Shown: positions 12,604 through 21,829 of the stretch, piece after piece
Position numbering within the stretch: the first letter of the stretch is position 1
Layout: every line of letters begins with the position of its first letter
Virus record (IMG/VR): IMGVR_UViG_3300032047_002863
Location: 1-22,014 of that record
Source: a virus
Strand: one strand, 5' to 3'
Length of the DNA stretch: 22,014 nucleotides
Program-made: the position numbers and the translations under genes
Notes under the pieces: generated by a model
Told to the model about the DNA's origin: nothing
The model's database searches: none
The model's input: only the letters and a program-made list of their open reading frames with translations

Positions 12604-12963
12604 TTAAATGGTCGTTACTTCAGGTGAGACAGTAATCTGACCTTCAAGTATTCTTTCTCTAAATACATTACTCGAGCTATCTGCATGAGATACCTCAACA
12701 TCATAAACCCAACGGCCTTTGCGTAATGCACTAGATTGTGCGTTTGTGAGTGAGAGAGTAATTTTGCCGGCTGTAGCTGGACTGTCAACAGTACAAGTAA
12801 ATGCTTGTACGTCATCAGCGTCAGTACTTTTGTAAGTACGTTTCATTTGGGCGGTTACTGAATGATTTGTAAGGTTTTTAACAGAGCCATCTAGGTTTGT
12901 AGTTTCTATAGATACAGAAATGTCAGAACCTTGGTCAAATTCTAAGTCTTCATAGGCAGCCAT
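12604..12963 (-). CDS. Small BppU_N-like virion structural protein
   Basis: This 119-residue protein resembles a small beta-sandwich family found beside fibre genes in marine T4-like phages and related to the N-terminal domain of the baseplate upper protein BppU. Visible signature phrases are FDQGSDISVSIETTNLDG near the start, VKNLTNHSVTAQMKRTYKS, then AGKITLSLTNAQSSAL, GRWVYDVEVS and a closing ILEGQITVSPEVT. I recall similar QGSD...YDVE...LEG...P.VT proteins as uncharacterised virion proteins. It may link the adjacent giant fibre to the particle. A GAGGAT ribosome site precedes the ATG, and a perfect T4-type late box lies 28 bases upstream, suggesting it is the first gene of a late unit with the fibre. 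The structural role is inferred from fold resemblance and context. Confidence 0.7.
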   Translation of the reverse strand: MAAYEDLEFDQGSDISVSIETTNLDGSVKNLTNHSVTAQMKRTYKSTDADDVQAFTCTVDSPATAGKITLSLTNAQSSALRKGRWVYDVEVSHADSSSNVFRERILEGQITVSPEVTTI

Positions 12964-12990: not shown

Positions 12991-12998
12991 TATTTATA
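12991..12998 (-). promoter_or_regulatory. T4-type late promoter box (TATAAATA)
   Basis: The minus strand carries TATAAATA, an exact match to the T4 late promoter -10 box used by the gp55 sigma factor with the gp45 clamp. It lies in the only real intergenic gap between the tailoring cassette and the structural genes, 28 bases upstream of the 119-residue gene. There is no -35 element, as expected for late promoters. No stem-loop terminator is evident in the 46-base gap. Confidence 0.72.
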
Positions 12999-13009
12999 AT
13001 AAAAGGATT

Positions 13010-14341
13010 CTAAAAAACTCTGACTCCGTATTTATTTTCAAATGCTTTGGCATCTGTTTTAGTGTTTACAATTGGTTGACCTTTGATATTTAAGCTTGTA
13101 TTCAATAACATAGGACAACCTGTCATATTATACCACTCTTCGAGTATTAGTCTGATAATAGACTTAGAATCTGGTTTTACAATCTGGACTCTTGCAGTAC
13201 CGTCAACATGGGTAACTGACTTATAGTCATGCTTTGCCTTTGCGACATACTGCATGTATTCATTCATTGGTCCGTCGAAGTATTTATACGCGTATTCAGA
13301 AAGTATTACCGGAGCAAATGGTCTAAATCTCTGTCTTTGTTTAATATCATTGACCGTATCTTTGATATCAAGACGTGGATCTGCAAGCAACGATCTATTG
13401 CCTAATGCTCTTGGTCCGAACTCTGCTCGGCCATGCGCAATACCACAAACACCTTTCATATACAACCAAGTAACAATTTCACCGACATGCGGATTAGATT
13501 TGATATTATGGCCGAGATAGGCATCAGTGAACTGCAATGGTTTATCTAGGTATGCTGCAGCAGCTCCTAAACTACTACCAGCATCACCTGGATTAGGAAA
13601 GATCCATACCTTGTCAAACATCGGATGTATCTTGCTATTTGCTACACAATTCAATGCGACTCCACCACCGTAACATAAACAATTAGAATACTTACGAGCT
13701 ATCTTCATGATCTCTATTATATGCTTCTCAATTGTACATTGTGCATCGTATGCAACTTGATACTTGTCTACGCTCATAGGATATTCTGGTAAACCCATAT
13801 GTAGATTGTATTTTAATAATTCACTTAAATCTTGACTGGAATGTGGCCATGCGTATGCAGCCATGCCCATTGTAATGTATTCGTCTTCCATTGGTTTCAA
13901 TCCAATGTGATCTGTGATCGCAGAATAAAATAAGCCAAGAGACCAAGGATATCGTTTACTCCATACCTTTTTCTTCTTGTACCATATAGAACATGTATCC
14001 CATTCACCAATCGCATCGATAACCACACATACAGGTTCTTCTGCGTACGGGCGGGTGTAGTACGCGGCCGCGGCATGAGACCAATGATGCTTTACATAAT
14101 GATCATACTTTGGTCGTTTGACCCAGCCTTGACCAGAATATAAACGTCTAAGATTTTTACGAAAGGGTTTTTCATAGAATACAGTCTTGCCTTCGATAAG
14201 TAATGAAGGATGAAGCTCAGGATCATTTTTGATTTTACTATATCTCTCTGCATGTTCTGCAGATAATATATTACCATCCTCATCAATCGTAGCCACAGCC
14301 GCATCATGAAAACCATGTGATATGCCAGTAATCTTATTCAC
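13010..14341 (-). CDS. NodU/TobZ-type O-carbamoyltransferase
   Basis: This 443-residue enzyme belongs to the carbamoyltransferase family that transfers a carbamoyl group from carbamoyl phosphate, through an adenylate, onto a hydroxyl of a sugar or natural product. The N-domain begins KITGISHGFHDAAVA and carries the HHWSHAAAAYY histidine motif, VIDAIGEWDT and GGGVALNCVANS. The C-domain has GRAEFGPRALGNRSLLADPR, FRPFAPVIL and LLNTSLNIKGQPIV. All motifs look intact. I place the start at GTG 14341: it gives a protein beginning where the family begins and an 8-base overlap with the upstream gene. An ATG at 14380 would add 13 residues (MNKSELGYWIVIH) that lie wholly over the upstream gene and do not look like the family. 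It is the last gene of the overlapping cassette. The acceptor is unknown; a glycan made by the cassette's glycosyltransferases is the likeliest. Confidence 0.92.
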   Translation of the reverse strand: MNKITGISHGFHDAAVATIDEDGNILSAEHAERYSKIKNDPELHPSLLIEGKTVFYEKPFRKNLRRLYSGQGWVKRPKYDHYVKHHWSHAAAAYYTRPYAEEPVCVVIDAIGEWDTCSIWYKKKKVWSKRYPWSLGLFYSAITDHIGLKPMEDEYITMGMAAYAWPHSSQDLSELLKYNLHMGLPEYPMSVDKYQVAYDAQCTIEKHIIEIMKIARKYSNCLCYGGGVALNCVANSKIHPMFDKVWIFPNPGDAGSSLGAAAAYLDKPLQFTDAYLGHNIKSNPHVGEIVTWLYMKGVCGIAHGRAEFGPRALGNRSLLADPRLDIKDTVNDIKQRQRFRPFAPVILSEYAYKYFDGPMNEYMQYVAKAKHDYKSVTHVDGTARVQIVKPDSKSIIRLILEEWYNMTGCPMLLNTSLNIKGQPIVNTKTDAKAFENKYGVRVF

Positions 14342-15365
14342 GTGTATAACTATCCAGTAACCAAGTTCCGATTTGTTCATCTATAAGATGTTTAGTAATA
14401 TGAACATTATTTTTCTTATCTGTATAAGGAACCCAGTCATCTAGTCTTTTTTGTAATCCATCATATATATTTTTTAATTTATCACTAGGTAAATTCCAAA
14501 TAGCATATTCTTCTGGATATCGGATTGTATTGTACCATAAGTTTGTATTGTGTCTATTAGTGAAATCTAAGAAGTCAACCATTTCAAACCAATTATTTCT
14601 CATCGGGTTTACCATAATACATAGTTCTCTTTTACCATCAGTACAATATTTTTTATATCTCTCTAAGTTTTGAAATACTTTTGATAGATCACCATTGATT
14701 CGAATAGCGGCATATCTTTCTGGATCTAAACTATCTATGCTCAGATTGATATGCACATTGTTCTGCTCTAGTATTTTACGTACTCTTTTACTATATACAG
14801 TTCCGTTAGTAGCAATGTTTACTTTTAATTTTGGATTTACTTTTGCAACCATGTCACATATATCTAAAACTATTCTTTGAGCAAATGGTTCACCACCATT
14901 GAATCTCAGTTCTTCGAGATGTGGTATAAATTCTTCAAGTTGATCTATAAACTTGTCTGTATATGCCATCGGCAATGGTGGCTTACCTTCACGATTCTTT
15001 CGTATACCAGAACTCAATTCACCAGAACACATGATACATTCTAAATTACATTGATTACTGAGTTCCATCTCCATCATTGTAGGATATTTTTTTACACTAT
15101 ATTGACTGTATGCTCTTGCAAGTGGCCACACATTATTATCAATATCCTTTTTGCATTCAAAACATCTGCCAGTAAACTTTTGTTCTACTAAGTCTTGTCG
15201 TTTCTGTCTATAGGCTTTACCATTCCATATATCGCTTATAGATCTGTCAACTGTCCAACGATCTATTTCTCCTACGGTCAACCAACATGGAGATGCTTTG
15301 GCATGTACATTCCAATACATATTATTCCATGCAGCTCTGCATTTAGATTTTGAGTGATCTATCAT
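14334..15365 (-). CDS. Radical SAM protein with N-terminal twitch-like Cys region (343 residues)
   Basis: The radical SAM CxxxCxxC cluster is clear at residues 106-113 (SNQCNLECIMC), and GGEP, the SAM-binding glycine motif, is at about 157-160. Before the core is an N-terminal Cys set: C9, C27 and C68xxC71 (GRCFECKK). That arrangement resembles the twitch/SPASM-type auxiliary cluster region found at the N-terminus of a subgroup of radical SAM proteins. Such enzymes make a 5'-deoxyadenosyl radical to modify small molecules or peptides; the substrate here is unknown. It shares an ATGA overlap with the preceding 393-residue radical SAM gene, and its 3' end overlaps the carbamoyltransferase start by 8 bases. 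The two adjacent enzymes share the twitch-core layout but differ in sequence, so they are old paralogues or a recruited pair. Confidence 0.87.
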   Translation of the reverse strand: MIDHSKSKCRAAWNNMYWNVHAKASPCWLTVGEIDRWTVDRSISDIWNGKAYRQKRQDLVEQKFTGRCFECKKDIDNNVWPLARAYSQYSVKKYPTMMEMELSNQCNLECIMCSGELSSGIRKNREGKPPLPMAYTDKFIDQLEEFIPHLEELRFNGGEPFAQRIVLDICDMVAKVNPKLKVNIATNGTVYSKRVRKILEQNNVHINLSIDSLDPERYAAIRINGDLSKVFQNLERYKKYCTDGKRELCIMVNPMRNNWFEMVDFLDFTNRHNTNLWYNTIRYPEEYAIWNLPSDKLKNIYDGLQKRLDDWVPYTDKKNNVHITKHLIDEQIGTWLLDSYTRE

Positions 15366-16543
15366 CCAAACAATACTTCTGCAAATTCAGGAAAGATTTC
15401 ATCAAAAGATTCTTTCCTACGGTTATCTAATTGTGCGGTAACTCTCATAAAATCTGTTAGCCTATCTTCATTACTAGCATCTAAGAAACTAATAACTTTT
15501 TGTAGTTGATGGTTATTATTACCTTTATATTTTTCTTTTATCTTTTCTTTCACATCTTCTGGTAAATACTGTACTGATTGATTCTTAGGTTCATGTACCA
15601 TATTAAAAAGTAAATCATTTGCACCTATGTCATGGTAAAAATCTATGATATCATTGAGATACCATATATTATAGTTATTAACTGTCGGCATAAGATTGAA
15701 GATTAACTTTTCATATTTTTTTGATAGAGCACTATATTTCTTTGCATTTGCTAGTACTGTTTCCCAACGTGCACCGCCTCTTGCGTATTGCAATCTTTTA
15801 CCAATATCATCTATGCTACCAGTAATTCGAATCTCTTTGAATTTAAGAATATCGTTTACAACATCTTTATTGTACATTGTAACATTTGTAGTAATTAATA
15901 ATGATATATTCTCTGCCCAACCAGATTTAGCAATATACTTAAGCAGTTGTTTATTTTCAGGACTTACTAATGGTTCTCCTCCAGTCAATTCTATATTGAA
16001 TATCTCTGGTAACCATTTATCTAATACTTCTTGATTATCAGTACCCATTATTTTATTCGCAAGCCAATAATCATTTGGATCTAAGGGTTCTATTCTAGTC
16101 TTATCTTCTTCTTTCTTTATCATACTCGAAGCCATCGGTCCACACATACGGCATTTAAGATTACATACATTCGATAGTTTGAGATCAAATGAAGTCGGAG
16201 CATCGGCTTCTTCGGTTACAGTATCCTTTGTTATGTGTTGAATTGGTACTATTTCAAGAAGATCTTCTCTGTAACTCTTAATGCCCATATCTTCTTCTCT
16301 CCAGCACCATTCACATTCCGAAGGTTTCTCACCATTTATAAAGGCTTTACGTAATTTTTTAAACTCAGGACCGTTCCAATGTTTTTCTAACGTATCAGTG
16401 TACATCCATGGCATCTTATGTTTTTCTTGACCATCATTGCTGGATCCCCGTGGTTGTTTGTATCTACAACACGGCCGTATAGATCCGTTCACATCAGTCG
16501 ATATATGATACCAAGGAGCAGGGCAAAAACTACTTTTTATCAT
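15362..16543 (-). CDS. Twitch-domain radical SAM protein (393 residues)
   Basis: The N-terminus has the hallmark of the twitch-domain radical SAM subgroup: FCPAPWYHISTDVNGSIRPCC at residues about 6-26, then CEWCW at 77-81. The radical SAM core follows with CNLKCRMC at 127-134 and TGGEPLV at about 187-193. Cluster-binding residues all look present, so it should be active. The substrate is unknown. I choose ATG 16543, with GGTGG five bases upstream; a GTG at 16552 would add only MDV and is less convincing. The start overlaps the end of the small Cys-rich gene by 14 bases, and the stop overlaps the next radical SAM gene by 4 bases (ATGA). This is the first of two consecutive twitch-type radical SAM enzymes in the cassette. 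Confidence 0.88.
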   Translation of the reverse strand: MIKSSFCPAPWYHISTDVNGSIRPCCRYKQPRGSSNDGQEKHKMPWMYTDTLEKHWNGPEFKKLRKAFINGEKPSECEWCWREEDMGIKSYREDLLEIVPIQHITKDTVTEEADAPTSFDLKLSNVCNLKCRMCGPMASSMIKKEEDKTRIEPLDPNDYWLANKIMGTDNQEVLDKWLPEIFNIELTGGEPLVSPENKQLLKYIAKSGWAENISLLITTNVTMYNKDVVNDILKFKEIRITGSIDDIGKRLQYARGGARWETVLANAKKYSALSKKYEKLIFNLMPTVNNYNIWYLNDIIDFYHDIGANDLLFNMVHEPKNQSVQYLPEDVKEKIKEKYKGNNNHQLQKVISFLDASNEDRLTDFMRVTAQLDNRRKESFDEIFPEFAEVLFG

Positions 16544-16922
16544 TACGTCCACCAGGCATACAGTTCAATCTACATTGTTTTGTGAGTCTATCAGAATCGT
16601 CCCATGATTCTGGTAAAGTTTTAGTAAACCAATCTTCATTTAATATATCAATCAAAGGATTTTTGTGTATATTATATTTGTCTTTATTATTCCAATATTC
16701 CATTAGAATAGATTCTTGTTTAAAGTCTTTGACTATCTGATGTTTATCACCAATCTGTGCCGTAATAGTATTATCACTCGGTACATCAAATTTATCATAT
16801 GCATATAGAATATTTGCAAAGTAACAACATGGAATTACCTGACCATCAGGATTAATAATAGTTCGGTTTTTTTCCATCCATTCACAAACGACGCCGCATT
16901 TATTCTTGTTGAGCAATGACAT
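16530..16922 (-). CDS. Small Cys-rich SPASM/twitch-like protein without a radical SAM core
   Basis: This 130-residue protein has cysteines laid out as C9xxxC13, a GQVIPCC motif (Gly27 with Cys32 and Cys33) and C117xxxC121. NPDGQVIPCCYF is the phrase that opens a SPASM domain (Gx4C), and CRLNC near the end matches the closing Cx3C. It therefore looks like an auxiliary iron-sulfur cluster domain encoded on its own. The gene directly upstream encodes a radical SAM core with no such domain, so the two probably form one split enzyme. The start overlaps the upstream gene by 23 bases and has GGAAAG about 8 bases upstream; the stop overlaps the next radical SAM gene by 14 bases. The spacing between cysteine pairs is longer than the usual SPASM motif, so a divergent or different Fe-S fold is possible. 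Confidence 0.65.
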   Translation of the reverse strand: MSLLNKNKCGVVCEWMEKNRTIINPDGQVIPCCYFANILYAYDKFDVPSDNTITAQIGDKHQIVKDFKQESILMEYWNNKDKYNIHKNPLIDILNEDWFTKTLPESWDDSDRLTKQCRLNCMPGGRNDKK

Positions 16923-17670
16923 CTTTTATTCTTTCCATATCTTTTTCATTATACAAATCTAATCTTGTCCAATAAAAATCTTTCATATCAGGTAGTGTCG
17001 ATACATGTAATACAAGCTCTTCACGTTTTTGATTTATAAACTTGAACTTAGGATAATAAAATCTATTCGATCTTAATAACATTATATCTTCACAACCATT
17101 ATCTTTGGCAGACATCGCTATATTATATATGTCATCTTGATTATGTTTGAATATTACAGTAAAGCACGTACTCTTACCTCCAGCCATATTATACGATGCC
17201 ATATTATCTAATACTAATTGTAGATCTGTATCTTGTCGATATAATGAATGCTGTTCTTGAGTTATACCTTCAACTGCCCACCATACCCACAACCTATTTT
17301 TACATAGTATACCAAGATTCCACCACCATTCACTGTCTCGTATACTACCATTTGTATTCAATAAAATGCTGCAATCGCTTTCTTCCATTATATATTTAAT
17401 AATCTTGAAAATATCTTTATTCATACATGGATCACCCCATGTTCCACACATATCAAATGATTTAATGTGTTGCATCGTTTCGATAGGAAACATTTTTTTA
17501 AATTCTTCGATTGACCATTGAGTAAGAGGAAGCCAGTTAGCTTTACCTAATCCGTCTGCATCTGTTCTATGACATTGTGGACATCTTGCATTACAATATG
17601 TAGAAAGGTCTAGCCATAAACATAAGTCGCCTTGCTCGTATTGTTTATTATAGTGTATTATATTTTTCAT
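16900..17670 (-). CDS. Radical SAM core protein (256 residues)
   Basis: The CxxxCxxC motif is at residues 26-33 (TYCNARCPQC), preceded by LWLDLS as the first core strand. Where many radical SAM enzymes have GGEP, this one has CGTWGDPCMN (about residues 75-84), a variant seen in SPASM-type enzymes. The protein ends soon after the core, with no C-terminal auxiliary Cys region; that region seems to be supplied by the next gene. I choose ATG 17670, with GGA six bases upstream and a 23-base overlap with the preceding glycosyltransferase. An ATG at 17685 would add MSGKY but has no ribosome site. The role is probably modification of a peptide, sugar or small molecule, with unknown substrate. Confidence 0.85.
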   Translation of the reverse strand: MKNIIHYNKQYEQGDLCLWLDLSTYCNARCPQCHRTDADGLGKANWLPLTQWSIEEFKKMFPIETMQHIKSFDMCGTWGDPCMNKDIFKIIKYIMEESDCSILLNTNGSIRDSEWWWNLGILCKNRLWVWWAVEGITQEQHSLYRQDTDLQLVLDNMASYNMAGGKSTCFTVIFKHNQDDIYNIAMSAKDNGCEDIMLLRSNRFYYPKFKFINQKREELVLHVSTLPDMKDFYWTRLDLYNEKDMERIKDVIAQQE

Positions 17671-18328
17671 ATATTTTCCACTCATGCGGCTTATTCAAGC
17701 TGTGAGTAAAGTGAACCATTTTTATATCTGAATTAAATGTTTCATCTTCAAATAAAGATGATCCAGTAAGTACATGGTATTTTTTTCCTATAAGGTATTT
17801 ATCTCCGGTATCTGCTTCCCAATCGGCATTCCATCTTGTAACCCACGAATCTGGTAAAAGCTTTAGCTTTAATTCTTTTTGTATCATCTCATGCACATAT
17901 AAAAACTCACCGTTAACTGGTCCAGTTGTATATCCATTTTTTATATAATAGTTAGTGTAATAATCTATATTTTCCATATAGTTATCATAAATGTATTTAC
18001 ATTCTTTTGGATAAAACTTATAGAATCCACCACTCATTGGTATTGTACCACTGCCCCACCAATATGGTGCTGCTAAGAACTCTCCGTGTTTTATAGGATA
18101 TTCAATAGCTTCTTTATAATCATTAATAAAAAGTTTATCAATGTCGAGTACAAGAACTGGCTCATTACTATCATCATTCATAGCAGCCATCTTATTCCAT
18201 TGCAATGGTATATTAGGCCTGATTGGTTCTTTTATCCATATGACTTCATAGTCAGATAGTTTATCGTTCATATAGTCTTCGTACTGTTGACCGTATTTGT
18301 TGCCTATTCTTACACAGTATATTCTCAT
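17648..18328 (-). CDS. Glycosyltransferase-like protein with DxD motif (226 residues)
   Basis: The protein starts MRIYCVRIGNKYGQQY, closely paralleling the start of the 209-residue protein at 19923-20552 (VKFGTKYGPEF), and shares a QWNKMAAM / VLVLDIDKLF arrangement with it. LDID at about residues 61-64 is the DxD-type metal and nucleotide-sugar site of GT-A folds. It resembles GT8-like or phage glycosyltransferase families; donor and acceptor are unknown. The ATG at 18328 shares an ATGA overlap with the micro-gene upstream. A GTG at 18352 would give eight extra residues lying over the micro-gene and breaks the alignment with the paralogue, so I reject it. The stop overlaps the following radical SAM gene. 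Confidence 0.78.
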   Translation of the reverse strand: MRIYCVRIGNKYGQQYEDYMNDKLSDYEVIWIKEPIRPNIPLQWNKMAAMNDDSNEPVLVLDIDKLFINDYKEAIEYPIKHGEFLAAPYWWGSGTIPMSGGFYKFYPKECKYIYDNYMENIDYYTNYYIKNGYTTGPVNGEFLYVHEMIQKELKLKLLPDSWVTRWNADWEADTGDKYLIGKKYHVLTGSSLFEDETFNSDIKMVHFTHSLNKPHEWKIYEKYNTL

Positions 18329-18453
18329 TTGAGTTTCATACCATAAGGCCACTCACCTTCTGTTGTCCAGTATCTTGAATTATACCAAGCACATTCAAAA
18401 GATATTATAGGACCATATCCTTTTGCACGTAAAAATTTATACCATTTAATCAT
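18325..18453 (-). CDS. Aromatic-rich 42-residue micro-protein of unknown function
   Basis: This short reading frame fills what would otherwise be a 100-base gap between two glycosyltransferase-like genes. It starts at an ATGA overlap with the upstream stop and ends at an ATGA overlap with the downstream start, so it is coupled on both sides. The product opens MIKWYKFLRAKGYGPIISFE and ends GEWPYGMKLK. Eleven of 42 residues are aromatic (Trp 4, 23, 29, 35; Tyr 5, 13, 24, 28, 37; Phe 7, 19), with one Cys at 21. I do not recognise the family. It could be a small glycosyltransferase partner, or, given three radical SAM enzymes downstream, a peptide substrate; the latter is speculative. An ATG three codons earlier (18462) is possible. 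Confidence 0.68.
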   Translation of the reverse strand: MIKWYKFLRAKGYGPIISFECAWYNSRYWTTEGEWPYGMKLK

Positions 18454-19328
18454 AGAACCCATTCAACCTTTTTATTAATAACATGATACAGCTTTGCTCT
18501 AGTATCTATCATCTCTTTCTTTGGATGATCTACGATGTAATGCCATTCTTTCGGCAACCAATCAATACCTATATTTCTTTTCTTTACAAGATAAGAGAAT
18601 ACAGTTTCATTATCATAGTTAAATATTCTCTGAATATTAGGTGGATGTATAGAATCTTCTTCTTCTTTGAGATATGTCATTAAGTCTAATGTCTTATCGA
18701 ACTCCCAAAAGTATGCAAGTTTTTGTATGACGTTATATCCTGCCACCATAATGCCAGTATTAAAGACGTCATTCTCTGGTTCCATACCATCTTCGAGTAA
18801 CATAGCATATGTGTTCCAATACTTAGATGCCGGATTACGAATACAAGAATTATATTGTGTCGATGAAATGTTCTTACCCCACTCTGCAAGATCATTTGAA
18901 TCTGCAACACCAAAGTTTGACTGATCGAATATTCTAAATACATTCTCGTCTGTGTTTGGTACTACATCAAAGTCAAGATAACATACTTGATCATATTCGT
19001 TTGCAAACTCTTTCATTGCCCAATGCTTATAGAAGTTAATGATGTCGTATTCAGATATCTGTGGATAGTCTTTCATATACTTACAGAAATCTTTGTAGTG
19101 CTTATCGTTACCAAGTAAACGATATTCAACAGGTTCACCACATTCTGGTTTATTAAGTGATTCTGCGTATTCGCGCTGACGTCTTTCTAGTTCATGTCGA
19201 TTATTGTATAATGCGTTCTTTGTCTTAAGACTCTTATCAGTCTTAACTTGCACGCCTTTCTCATACCAGCCTGGATTATCTAGTTTATCTTCTGGTATAT
19301 CAATGAAGATACTGAAGATGATTTTCAT
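18450..19328 (-). CDS. Glycosyltransferase-like protein with DxD motif (292 residues)
   Basis: QVCYLDFDVVPNTDENVF at about residues 114-131 contains the DFD metal-binding motif of GT-A glycosyltransferases. NFYKHWAMKEFA just before it matches the substrate-contact helix seen in related capsule and LPS transferases. Later phrases include DVFNTGIMVAGYN, a GT8-like signature for galactosyl or glucosyl donors, and LYHVINKK near the end. No membrane segment or signal peptide is visible, so it should act in the cytosol. The start shares ATGA with the methyltransferase stop, and the stop shares ATGA with the micro-gene. Donor and acceptor are unknown. It is clearly more distant from the other two glycosyltransferase-like proteins than they are from each other. 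Confidence 0.78.
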   Translation of the reverse strand: MKIIFSIFIDIPEDKLDNPGWYEKGVQVKTDKSLKTKNALYNNRHELERRQREYAESLNKPECGEPVEYRLLGNDKHYKDFCKYMKDYPQISEYDIINFYKHWAMKEFANEYDQVCYLDFDVVPNTDENVFRIFDQSNFGVADSNDLAEWGKNISSTQYNSCIRNPASKYWNTYAMLLEDGMEPENDVFNTGIMVAGYNVIQKLAYFWEFDKTLDLMTYLKEEEDSIHPPNIQRIFNYDNETVFSYLVKKRNIGIDWLPKEWHYIVDHPKKEMIDTRAKLYHVINKKVEWVL

Positions 19329-19960
19329 TTTCCAATCACCATAAATCGATTAAAGTCGTTTAGTTCTAAAGTTTTTACACAAGCCACCCATTCAAGATTT
19401 AAACTCTCTGCAAATAACTGAGCTGTTGGCCAACAGTTGATATGAGAGTTTAAGTCTTTATAGTTATTTGTCTGAAATACAACCCATGCTTGTTTATCCT
19501 TTTTCTTTATGATAGCATGTAAGTCTTCTTGTTCCATATGTTCGCAACTCGTATTAATAATAGCACTATACGGAGATAAATCTTCTTCTTCATTTATATC
19601 TTTAGTTCTAAAATCTATGTCATAATCACCAAAAAGTTCCCATGCGTATTCTTCACATATTGGATCACAGTCTGCAGATACAATATTCATTCTACTACCA
19701 GGCCATTTCTGACGTAAATGATATGCCATCATGCCATACCATCCACCAACAACTAAAAACCTACCTGTATGAAATCCATAAAATTTATGAAATACATCTG
19801 CTAGCCATTTCTTGCTTTCCCAATGATTTTGATCGACACTGTGTACAATATCTTTGATACGATATAGATCATCTACGCCGTACATTGATTCATCATATAC
19901 TTTTTCAGAGAGCTTAAGAGCTCTAGATAAGATCTTCGATTCCAACTTCCATTTCCTCAT
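19325..19960 (-). CDS. SAM-dependent methyltransferase-like protein (211 residues)
   Basis: A class I methyltransferase fold is suggested by RFLVVGGWYGMMAYHL (about residues 67-82, glycine-rich motif I), NIVSADCDPICEEYA (about 92-106, acidic residue at the end of strand 2) and SAIINTSCEHM (about 132-142, motif IV region). The rest is soluble, with no membrane segments. Motif I has GGWYG in place of the commoner GxGxG but keeps the loop. The substrate is unknown; sugar or small-molecule methylation would fit its glycosyltransferase neighbours. The ATG at 19960 overlaps the upstream gene by 38 bases. A TTG at 19945 with GAGGA eight bases upstream is an alternative start. The stop overlaps the next start (ATGA). 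Confidence 0.72.
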   Translation of the reverse strand: MRKWKLESKILSRALKLSEKVYDESMYGVDDLYRIKDIVHSVDQNHWESKKWLADVFHKFYGFHTGRFLVVGGWYGMMAYHLRQKWPGSRMNIVSADCDPICEEYAWELFGDYDIDFRTKDINEEEDLSPYSAIINTSCEHMEQEDLHAIIKKKDKQAWVVFQTNNYKDLNSHINCWPTAQLFAESLNLEWVACVKTLELNDFNRFMVIGK

Positions 19961-20552
19961 ACGTTGTTATTATAGTATCATAATTTATATCTGGATGGTA
20001 TTTCTTTGATTGTATATAAGTGTTTGGAAATGTATCATAGTCAAAGTCTTCATGCACAATAAATCGATCTATACCTTTATATTTGCGTAAATAATAATCA
20101 CGAAATCCTGTATTAAAATGATCCCATATCTTATGTACATCAGGATCGTCTGCATTCCAAGCAATCATAGACGAGTTCATTTTCACATCATAGTTAGATA
20201 ATCTATTATATAGCTTACCTTGTTTCCAATGACAATTAATGAAAGTGAGATTTTGACTTGATATTTCAAGTAATCTTTCAGGATCTTGAACCTTTGCATC
20301 AAGATCTAAAAACAATATATCACCTGAAAGAGGAAAGTTTTTATCAAACATACGCAGTTTATTCCACCACACTTTGAGTGTAGGTCTACCTTGATCAGGA
20401 ATAACTTCGATTCCTTCGTCTAAACCGTACGAATCATCTGTATAGCAATAGAACTTATCTAGCTTTGGTTGATCTTTTACATCTTTATAGATTTTATTTA
20501 CAAATTCTGGCCCGTACTTGGTACCAAATTTAACAGTAATAAGTTTTGTCAT
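19923..20552 (-). CDS. Glycosyltransferase-like protein with DxD motif (209 residues), first gene of the tailoring cassette
   Basis: The protein opens MTKLITVKFGTKYGPEFVNK and has KVWWNKLRMFD then DILFLDLDAKVQD, with the DLD metal site at about residues 83-85. This is the layout of phage and bacterial GT-A-fold transferases related to GT8. INCHWKQG and FIVHEDFDYD-type segments follow and probably line the active site. It is a distant paralogue of the 226-residue protein at 17648-18328. Donor and acceptor are unknown. The ATG lies only six bases after a TATAAT -10 element, so a transcript from that promoter would have almost no leader; no Shine-Dalgarno sequence is visible. Its stop lies inside the methyltransferase gene. 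Confidence 0.78.
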   Translation of the reverse strand: MTKLITVKFGTKYGPEFVNKIYKDVKDQPKLDKFYCYTDDSYGLDEGIEVIPDQGRPTLKVWWNKLRMFDKNFPLSGDILFLDLDAKVQDPERLLEISSQNLTFINCHWKQGKLYNRLSNYDVKMNSSMIAWNADDPDVHKIWDHFNTGFRDYYLRKYKGIDRFIVHEDFDYDTFPNTYIQSKKYHPDINYDTIITTYEEMEVGIEDLI

Positions 20553-20558
20553 AATAAT

Positions 20559-20587
20559 ATTATAGCACGTTTTATTCGACTTGTAAA
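20559..20587 (-). promoter_or_regulatory. Sigma70 / T4-early-like promoter before the tailoring cassette
   Basis: On the minus strand TTTACA (20587-20582) is followed by a 17-base spacer and TATAAT (20564-20559). A TGC just before the -10 makes it an extended -10 element. The -35 region reads GTTTACA, which as I recall matches the T4 early promoter preference for GTTTAC. The predicted transcription start falls on or beside the A of the ATG at 20552, implying a leaderless or nearly leaderless mRNA. The -35 and part of the spacer overlap the last codons of the upstream gene. Confidence 0.72.
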
Positions 20588-21390
20588 CGTTTAATTTTAC
20601 AATATATTTCTAATACTTCATATATGCTTTTAGCTTTACGTATTGATAATTTTGTTGCTTTATCTTTTACAGCAACAATAGTAGGATCTTCAAACATTGC
20701 TAGTTTTAAATCAAATAGAAAGTTTTTATTATCATTAAACTTATCTGCATTCATAAGTAAATCTGCAGGAACAACGCCAGGAGTACTAATCGGATTATTC
20801 AATCTCCATAGTTCTATTCTTTCTTGTTCATTCTTATCTACTTTATTTTCGAGATCTTGCTTGTATTTTTCTGCGAGTTCATAACGTTCTTTATCGATTT
20901 CATCGGCATCGGCTTCTAGTTTTTTCTTATAATTCTCGACAAGTTCATATCGCTCTTTATCAGTTTTATCTACTTCTGCTTCGAGTTGTTTTTTATAAGC
21001 ATCTGCTAATTGATAACGTTCTTTATCGGTTTTATCTACATCAGCTTCGAGTTTCTTTTTATATATATCCATTTCACGATTAGCGATTGCATATCGTCTT
21101 TTATCTTGTTCATCTAATAATCTTTGGCCTTTAGCTAATTCTTCTGCGACTCGACCTTGTATGAGTTTGTCAAATGCCTCATCTTCTAATCTACGAGAAA
21201 CTCGTGTTTCTCTTTCAACTGCTTCCATAGACCATTCAGAAATAAACCCTTGAAAGTCAGCAGCGCCATAGTCAACTGGAAGATGATAAACATGAAGTTC
21301 ATCTTCTCTTTTAAATAAAACTTCTATGATTGTATTTTCTCTGTCTACAAATGTAGCAGAATCTATTTTACCTGTAAATTCAAACGCCAT
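20572..21390 (-). CDS. Unknown phage protein with 22-residue coiled-coil repeats (272 residues)
   Basis: The function is not recognised. The N-terminal ~60 residues (TGKIDSATFVDRENTIIEVL ... ISEWSMEAVER) and the C-terminal ~55 (FLFDLKLAMFEDP ... KLSIRKAKSIYEVLEIY) both match the neighbouring 149-residue protein, so the two are tandem paralogues. Between them lies a long charged helix with four exact-length 22-residue repeats of the form KKLEADVDKTDKERYELA..Y, starting at about residues 112, 134, 156 and 178, plus a degenerate fifth before them. This predicts a rigid coiled-coil rod. The gene start overlaps the 149-residue gene by 11 bases, with AAGGAG further upstream than usual. Context beside fibre and structural genes suggests a virion or assembly protein, which is inference. 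Confidence 0.75.
   Translation of the reverse strand: MAFEFTGKIDSATFVDRENTIIEVLFKREDELHVYHLPVDYGAADFQGFISEWSMEAVERETRVSRRLEDEAFDKLIQGRVAEELAKGQRLLDEQDKRRYAIANREMDIYKKKLEADVDKTDKERYQLADAYKKQLEAEVDKTDKERYELVENYKKKLEADADEIDKERYELAEKYKQDLENKVDKNEQERIELWRLNNPISTPGVVPADLLMNADKFNDNKNFLFDLKLAMFEDPTIVAVKDKATKLSIRKAKSIYEVLEIYCKIKRLQVE
20794..21057 (-). repeat. Four tandem 66-base repeats encoding a coiled coil
   Basis: Four in-frame 66-base units encode residues about 112-199 of the 272-residue protein. Each carries a LEA.VDK.DKERY.LA..YK-like helix. Units differ from each other by a few residues and by several third-position changes, so they are not a very recent expansion. The last unit is the most divergent (NKVDKNEQERIELW). 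Confidence 0.85.
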
Positions 21391-21829
21391 AATATAAGCT
21401 CAATAACTCCTTCAATGTTTTAGATTTTCTAATTTTTAACTGTTTAGATTTATCTTTGGTAGCTGACAATTCTTCTAATATCACTAGCTTGTATTCAAAC
21501 AACATTTCTTTATTACTACTGTGTTTATCTATAATCTGTAAAATGTCTTTTGGTTTCAGCCTTTGTACTGGTGTCATATTCCAATCTTTACGTGCTTCTT
21601 CTGCATTCAGTGCCGCTTGCTTTGAAACATCTTTTGCAGCTTGTTCTATTTTTTCTAATGGCCACTCTTCTATAAAATCTAGAAAAGTAGGGTCACTAAA
21701 ATTTACATGAAGATGGAATTGAGTTAGAACTGAATCGCCTTCTTGGCTATATAATATTTCTATAACACTGTTTGTAGGAGAGTCAGCAAATCGCGCTGAT
21801 TTTATTTTACCTGAAAATGCCTGTGACAT
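21380..21829 (-). CDS. Unknown phage protein, paralogue of the coiled-coil protein (149 residues)
   Basis: The function is not recognised. The protein has an N-terminal domain (FSGKIKSARFADSPTNSVIE ... FIEEWPLEKIEQ) and a C-terminal helical domain (EMLFEYKLVILEELSATKDK ... KIRKSKTLKELLSLYY) joined by a short linker. Both domains align with the ends of the 272-residue neighbour, which carries a coiled-coil insertion at the linker. No signal peptide or membrane segment is present. A good AGAAGGAT ribosome site precedes the ATG. The gene is 16 bases downstream of a structural-looking gene and overlaps its paralogue by 11 bases, indicating one transcript and probably related roles. Confidence 0.75.
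   Translation of the reverse strand: MSQAFSGKIKSARFADSPTNSVIEILYSQEGDSVLTQFHLHVNFSDPTFLDFIEEWPLEKIEQAAKDVSKQAALNAEEARKDWNMTPVQRLKPKDILQIIDKHSSNKEMLFEYKLVILEELSATKDKSKQLKIRKSKTLKELLSLYYGV

Follow-up and report, generated by a model that had tools for sequence, protein, structure and literature searches.

The window analyzed here, a 22,014-nucleotide stretch of viral DNA (positions 1 to 22,014 of IMG/VR virus record IMGVR_UViG_3300032047_002863), carries on its minus strand a run of ten overlapping open reading frames (ORFs), which we designated A to J in the order of their transcription. This run is best explained as a modular phage glycan-tailoring cassette that is expressed late and most likely targets a component of the virion, not necessarily the adjacent tail fiber; we give this explanation about an even chance of being correct. 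A glycan of the host envelope is the next most likely target, and hypermodification of phage DNA is less likely. As judged from profile, fold, and alignment comparisons, the cassette is built around an A-B-C core, predicted to encode a GT-A-fold transferase, a methyltransferase, and a family 8 glycosyltransferase (GT8), which is usually extended by E, F-G, H, I, and J. Tailoring chemistry is the natural reading of these gene families and is supported by them.

Conservation and modularity of the gene run

A sequence-only reading of the window had described ten overlapping ORFs with a chain of ATGA junctions running through a micro-gene and no overlap with the genes on either side. All of these features were recovered. 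The ORFs occupy positions 20552 to 13010 of the minus strand and overlap, from A to J, by 38, 4, 4, 4, 23, 23, 14, 4, and 8 bases, the very lengths given in the sequence-only reading; both junctions of the micro-gene, D, are ATGA, and the run is separated from n1 upstream of A by 19 bases and from K downstream of J by 46 bases. Overlaps were found at all nine junctions within A-J versus two of the eight junctions elsewhere in the window (hypergeometric p ~0.002).

Many viral contigs carried this set of genes in the order n1-A-B-C-E-F-G-(H)-(I)-K and with identical flanking genes, and similar forms of the block are present in dozens of other uncultured phages. Thus, the cassette forms a conserved neighborhood and is not a collection of scattered homologues. 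Either n1 or n2 preceded A in the relatives, n1 being the recurrent left flank in many phages, and a gene of 1000 to 1600 amino acids was found upstream; no homologue of n1 was detected among phage isolates. To the right, K was used as the anchor for a scan of the hotspot that comprised 80 loci, with genes in the relatives called mechanically as ORFs. The simplest loci contained a short unrelated stretch between n1/n2 and K (for example, L097 and L101; the region before K in phage C48C1 similarly holds only a few unrelated genes), and others contained A-B-C alone (L107, L109, and L143), A-B-C-E (L129), F-A-B-C (L115), A-B-C-E-F-G (L014), A-B-C-E-F-G-I (L013), or A-B-C-E-F-G-H-I, in some cases with parts duplicated (L005, L008, L010, and L061). 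J was present in L023, L036, L042, L055, and others, and it occurred without the transferases in L001. The content of the hotspot is plastic and exchanged between related phages, as in a host recognition cluster (HRC), and these comparisons indicate that cassette modules are swapped in and out between the virion-region genes (n0 and n1/n2) and K. The suggestion that the run is a complete pathway did not survive this comparison: the cassette lacks sugar-nucleotide synthesis, the presence of H, I, and J varies, and A-B-C by itself constitutes a stable version.

In the closest pair of relatives, L008 and L010, the ratio of nonsynonymous to synonymous substitutions (dN/dS) was 0.01 to 0.08 for the cassette genes, with the exception of C at 0.22. 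Such values point to strong purifying selection, and therefore the cassette genes are not filler DNA. Since the set is defined, recurrent, and modular, with a minimal A-B-C version and graded extensions, the role of each step is testable.

Table 1. Features of the cassette and its flanks in the 22,014-nucleotide window
Feature	Position	Strand	Evidence or remark
n1 + n2, hotspot left flank, function unassigned	20572..21829	-	resemble tandem paralogues
A, GT-A-fold transferase, invariant DxD (D83, D85)	19923..20552	-	AlphaFold2, Foldseek, alignment
B, class I SAM-dependent methyltransferase fold	19325..19960	-	AlphaFold2, Foldseek, alignment
C, glycosyltransferase family 8 (GT8)	18450..19328	-	Pfam PF01501
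D, orphan 42-codon ORF	18328..18453	-	ATGA overlap at either end
E, DxD transferase, probable GT-A type	17648..18331	-	D63, D65 invariant in alignment
F, radical SAM core (CxxxCxxC), no SPASM domain	16900..17670	-	Pfam PF04055, alignment
G, stand-alone SPASM/twitch domain, probable second half of F enzyme	16530..16922	-	Pfam PF13186
H, N-terminal-twitch radical SAM protein (N_Twi_rSAM)	15362..16543	-	NF033640
I, twitch plus radical SAM protein, N_Twi_rSAM relative	14334..15365	-	PF04055, NF033640
J, NodU/TobZ-type O-carbamoyltransferase	13010..14341	-	PF02543, PF16861, phrog_1601
TATAAATA, T4-type late promoter motif before K	12991..12998	-	35 nt upstream of K ATG
K, L-shaped tail-fiber assembly protein, hotspot right flank	12604..12963	-	phrog_3304, 59 bits
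Fiber, 3193 residues	3007..12588	-	many ILDGVTSTAAELN-type repeats

Gene families and the F-G pair

The contents assigned from sequence alone (transferases, methyltransferase, radical SAM and SPASM proteins, and carbamoyltransferase) agreed with the Pfam, fold, and alignment evidence. Although A had no match in Pfam or in a PDB profile search, its AlphaFold2 model (predicted local distance difference test score [pLDDT] of 88.8) was placed by Foldseek closest to GT6-type GT-A enzymes (E 1.7e-8, probability 1.0). The DxD motif is invariant in the family alignments of both A and E; neither protein matched GT8 (PF01501), and E gave no match in Pfam, NCBIfam, or the PDB-profile search. C, at 32.3 bits, scored above the GT8 cutoff of 24.3 and has a relative in the cultured pelagiphage Mosig (36% identity over 99%). 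The model of B (pLDDT 93.2) matched S-adenosylmethionine (SAM)-dependent methyltransferases (E 4.5e-9). A weak initial match of B to CntL was discarded, as the fold search ranks ordinary methyltransferases first. All products of A-J look soluble (maximum 19-residue hydropathy of 0.87).

F belongs to the radical SAM superfamily by its CxxxCxxC motif (C26, C30, and C33), which is invariant in the alignment, and it scored 26.9 bits against PF04055, just under the curated cutoff of 29.5. G exceeded the cutoff for PF13186 (30.6 versus 21.5 bits), and its invariant cysteines (C13, CC32-33, C117, and C121) form a C, CC, CxxxC pattern that we take to be typical of a twitch-type auxiliary cluster site. 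SPASM/twitch enzymes carry the core and the auxiliary Fe-S domain on one polypeptide, and in the window F and G are separate. G followed F directly in 79 of the 84 F copies with downstream sequence, nearly always in an overlapping frame; the pair was duplicated in L001 and L010 and fused in L084, L086, L087, and L261 into proteins of about 350 to 400 residues. This adjacency and the natural fusions make it most likely that F and G together constitute a single enzyme split in two. The earlier count of three radical SAM proteins plus a SPASM-like protein was therefore correct as to domains but probably not as to four separate proteins. BtrN and BlsE are twitch/SPASM radical SAM enzymes that act on sugars or nucleosides. 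The F-G pair resembles them in its CxxxCxxC core, auxiliary Fe-S domain, and plausible sugar chemistry, and F gives weak profile matches to Tes and to cytosylglucuronate decarboxylase, the latter a BlsE-type match; however, each of the known enzymes is a single polypeptide.

A scan of viral contigs with F yielded at least 145 confirmed relatives, 80 of which were kept, as opposed to three contigs among 84,980 prokaryote species in a scan that used conserved peptide patterns and may miss divergent cellular relatives. Among phage isolates, only distant relatives of F were found, in Campylobacter phages and in pelagiphage Mosig. The F family thus appears from these scans to be virus restricted and almost exclusive to phages. 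We tentatively propose, while regarding the whole as doubtful, that F+G founds a phage-exclusive family of split radical SAM/twitch enzymes, that its substrate is a sugar on the particle (or on 5-hydroxymethylcytosine [5hmC] DNA), and that the resulting carbamoylated, methylated, and radical-edited glycan is of a kind not known from viruses. A phage-restricted split pair with natural fusions offers a clean biochemical target.

The three contigs from the prokaryote scan, which are filed under cellular bins, look like phage DNA, and at least one of them is also a virus record in IMG/VR. L085 (PBQF01000077.1), from a Parcubacteria metagenome-assembled genome, agrees with IMG/VR record L020 in both length and match coordinates, and L086 and L087, from one Rhodobacteraceae bin, have a phage-like n1-F-A-B-C arrangement. 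Separately, in L062, L046, L050, and L078, the gene after another F-like radical SAM gene encodes a small cysteine-rich protein of a different kind, without a Pfam match (SPASMx; positions 3720-4100 of L062), which suggests that there are more split radical SAM pairs.

H is a member of the N_Twi_rSAM family (NF033640; 339 bits against a cutoff of 170). I scored 146.6 bits, under the same cutoff, and 56.9 bits against PF04055; Pfam detected both radical SAM and SPASM domains in H and in I. A single-protein search with H, which returned only one viral relative (L001), proved too narrow, and F was the productive bait. J exceeded the cutoffs of both PF02543 and PF16861, which places it in the TobZ/NodU superfamily, and it matched phrog_1601 and the profiles of the NovN, GdmN, and TobZ structures; against the NodU equivalog NF041651 it scored 120 bits, below the cutoff of 1000. 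Both Pfam domains are common to J and the NodU/TobZ O-carbamoyltransferases, including a phage 5hmC enzyme (PMC8670742), from which J differs in its length (443 versus about 570 to 700 amino acids) and in its neighbors, which are glycosyltransferase and radical SAM genes rather than genes of the thymidylate synthase (TS) family. A short SGNH/GDSL-like gene was found near F in 23 of 51 nonredundant groups, often directly after the carbamoyltransferase; O-acyl tailoring by its product is possible.

D stands apart from the other genes. It was absent from the relatives, including those that keep F-G-H-I, in which C and E abut or overlap directly, and no homologue was found by tblastn in phages or when 2.9 million viral contigs were scanned with one degenerate DNA pattern. 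As an open frame without any relative found, D is unproven as a gene, and this micro-gene falls outside the conserved set.

Expression and target of the cassette

The octamer TATAAATA, the T4 late promoter core, was found in most of the relatives examined at 33 to 58 nucleotides upstream of K; in L014 and L023 the sequence is CATAAATA. TATAAATA also precedes the s200-n0-n1-A unit in L005, L007, L008, L010, L014, and L060, and F directly in L030, L056, L065, and L066. The motif lay within 110 nucleotides of seven of nine copies of K, and A, E, G, H, and I lacked it in every copy; the chance expectation is about 1.8% per 110 nucleotides. Judging from these positions, the cassette appears to belong to a late transcription unit, distinct from the K-fiber unit, in which virion-type proteins are encoded as well. 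For the cassette of the window itself, the relatives suggest late expression.

In the proposed mechanism, the transferases would act in the cytosol and transfer one to three sugars from host nucleoside diphosphate sugars onto an acceptor. F+G, H, and I may abstract hydrogen either from a sugar (for epimerization, dehydrogenation, or decarboxylation, as in BtrN/BlsE) or from an acceptor peptide, whereas B would methylate and J would carbamoylate a hydroxyl. If the product is on virions, viral self-glycosylation would have a phage counterpart in this cassette.

Several observations weigh against a late cassette that modifies the virion. Late expression is assigned to the window by analogy, because the 22-kb record ends before the motif-bearing s200 gene upstream of n0, and several F-G units beside gp46/47 have no late motif. 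In addition, a sigma-70-like site on the minus strand (20587-20559; 11/12, extended -10) ends 6 nucleotides before the ATG of A. Many F-G phages carry a dCMP hydroxymethylase, and GT8 and the neighbors of the Kdo, UDP-Glc dehydrogenase, and RfaE types fit lipopolysaccharide (LPS) as well as they fit a virion glycan. Sequence alone does not separate a virion target from a host-envelope target, and the substrate, product, acceptor, and sugars are predictions. The sigma-70-like site, which looked like an early promoter, was set aside as evidence, since it is not conserved in the relatives and the total of such sites equals the shuffled expectation.

Remodeling of the host envelope, in which the LPS or O-chain of the infected cell is altered to exclude other phages or to free progeny from debris, is a possible but clearly less probable explanation. 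It is the published view for the same genome region (Zaragoza-Solas et al. 2020, PMC7029224), and it would account for the GT8 assignment of C, for the independence of the cassette from fiber type, and for the CMP-Kdo-type cytidylyltransferase, UDP-Glc dehydrogenase, epimerase, and RfaE-like genes that other groups carry close to F. However, the late-type motifs and the co-orientation with virion genes are at odds with exclusion functions, which are expected early, and the cassette includes no flippase, polymerase, or lipid-linked initiating enzyme.

It is unlikely that the cassette specifically decorates the adjacent 3193-residue fiber, as had been proposed from the sequence. The fiber does adjoin the cassette, K is a conserved neighbor in nine F groups, and serine and threonine make up 23.5% of the fiber residues (Thr 14.8%, Ser 8.7%); yet this content comes largely from the ILDGVTSTAAELN-type repeats, and K and the fiber form a separate late unit. 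Conserved co-occurrence with particular fiber types, which was expected under fiber modification, was not observed. In L008 and L010, A, B, E, F, G, H, and I are 94 to 99% identical and C is 74% identical, but identity falls to 36% for K, and beyond K the genes are unrelated. Similarly, A-E are 88 to 96% identical in L005 and L014, with 39% identity for K and 30% for the fiber. Conversely, K and the next gene are 96% identical in L005 and L061, and F, G, H, and I are only 39 to 63% identical. These pairs are evidence that cassette and fiber are exchanged independently, and F-G lies elsewhere, near gp55 or gp46/47, in 12 of 51 nonredundant F groups. Decoration of one fiber is unsupported because near-identical cassettes adjoin unrelated fibers.

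Slightly less probable still is that the transferases and the carbamoyltransferase act on 5hmC in phage DNA. A TS-family protein was encoded in 8 of 12 long F-bearing contigs, and that of the L010 phage is a T4 gp42-like dCMP hydroxymethylase by PDB match (E 2.7e-65); the versions in G005 and G006 matched much more weakly (30 bits). When the count was limited to contigs spanning the DNA polymerase and sequence beyond it, a TS-family protein was found in 8 of 10 with F versus none of 4 without F; this sample is small, near-duplicates (G002/G003) are part of it, and lineage is a confounder. The T4 AGT and BGT families were not found, a weak absence in that the controls gave no match either, and a phage 5hmC carbamoyltransferase is known (PMC8670742). 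The gp42 association was discarded as decisive for DNA modification on three grounds: no TS-family gene is present in L071 (160 kb, with polymerase; F-G-J-A-B-C) or in the complete genome of cultured phage Mosig, which encodes distant relatives of F, J, B, and C, and F is missing from two gp42 contigs of 183 and 201 kb. Moreover, the 5hmC-type carbamoyltransferases that have been described are encoded within 3 kb of TS-family genes (PMC8670742), whereas gp42 is far from the cassette where measured, and no TS-family gene was found within about 3 kb of J in the window or anywhere in the L001 and L071 contigs. The late-type expression signals also argue against this explanation. Should the product nevertheless reside on 5hmC DNA, it would represent a new type of hypermodification.

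Radical SAM/SPASM enzymes frequently mature peptides, and D is aromatic rich and translationally coupled; nonetheless, a pathway like that of ribosomally synthesized and posttranslationally modified peptides with D as the precursor is very improbable, given that D is missing where F-G-H-I is kept and that no conserved short precursor lies beside the radical SAM genes.

In the scan for dCMP hydroxymethylase (scan loci L178-L257), 518 stretches were confirmed, so the T4-type enzyme is common among IMG/VR viral contigs; sequences of the L010 phage are shared at 100% across several IMG/VR records. In L176 (613-3461) and L177, a TS-family/gp42-like gene lies in a run with KdsA-like DAHP-synthase-family, KdsB-like cytidylyltransferase, cupin, and RfaE-like genes, which places sugar-nucleotide genes beside a gene of the dCMP hydroxymethylase type.

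Known systems and the genomic setting

The cassette belongs with the HRC of pelagi- and cyanomyophages. The HRC study (Zaragoza-Solas et al. 2020, PMC7029224) had already noted glycosyltransferase and radical SAM cassettes and proposed O-chain modification, and it describes T4-like marine phages in which such genes lie beside tail-fiber genes, with GT8 prominent, content plastic, and a VrlC gene upstream. The passages found there do not describe the A-B-C-E-F-G-H-I order, the split F-G, carbamoyltransferase chemistry, or late motifs. What is new here relative to the open-licence literature is the gene order and its minimal core, F-G as a split enzyme, the presence of late motifs, and the independent exchange of cassette and fiber. 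Marine T4-like phages, which are very abundant, thus carry oxygen-sensitive radical chemistry next to fiber genes.

Pelagibacter phage Mosig EXVC030M (MT647606) encodes at 60-71 kb MoaA-like radical SAM proteins, a carbamoyltransferase, a methyltransferase, and a GT8 homologue in one overlapping run between tail-fiber and VrlC genes. With 24 to 36% identity where matched, an additional aminotransferase and nitroreductases, and another gene order, this cluster is a distant cousin of the cassette. The LPS clusters of cyanophages P-SSM2, S-SM2, and S-SSM7 (Sullivan 2010, PMC3037559) are similar in that surface-sugar genes co-occur in T4-like phages, whose sporadic genes include a carbamoyltransferase, but the clusters lie near hli03 or phoH instead of the fiber, and radical SAM is not mentioned there. 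Glycosylation of a virion protein by virus-encoded glycosyltransferases in chloroviruses (PMC7019647) is a functional analogy only, from a eukaryotic virus with unrelated genes.

In the window, the run adjoins tail-fiber genes in a T4-like phage setting. The structural region recognized from the sequence was borne out by the genes found there, the minus-strand order of transcription being n2, n1, A-J, K, fiber, head-tail adaptor, head closure Hc2, tail sheath stabilizer, and small terminase. The starts used were 20552 (A), 19960 (B), 19328 (C), 18453 (D), 18331 (E), 17670 (F), 16922 (G), 16543 (H), 15365 (I), and 14341 (J, GTG). Longer starts are possible for D, E, F, H, and J, and their only effect would be longer overlaps.

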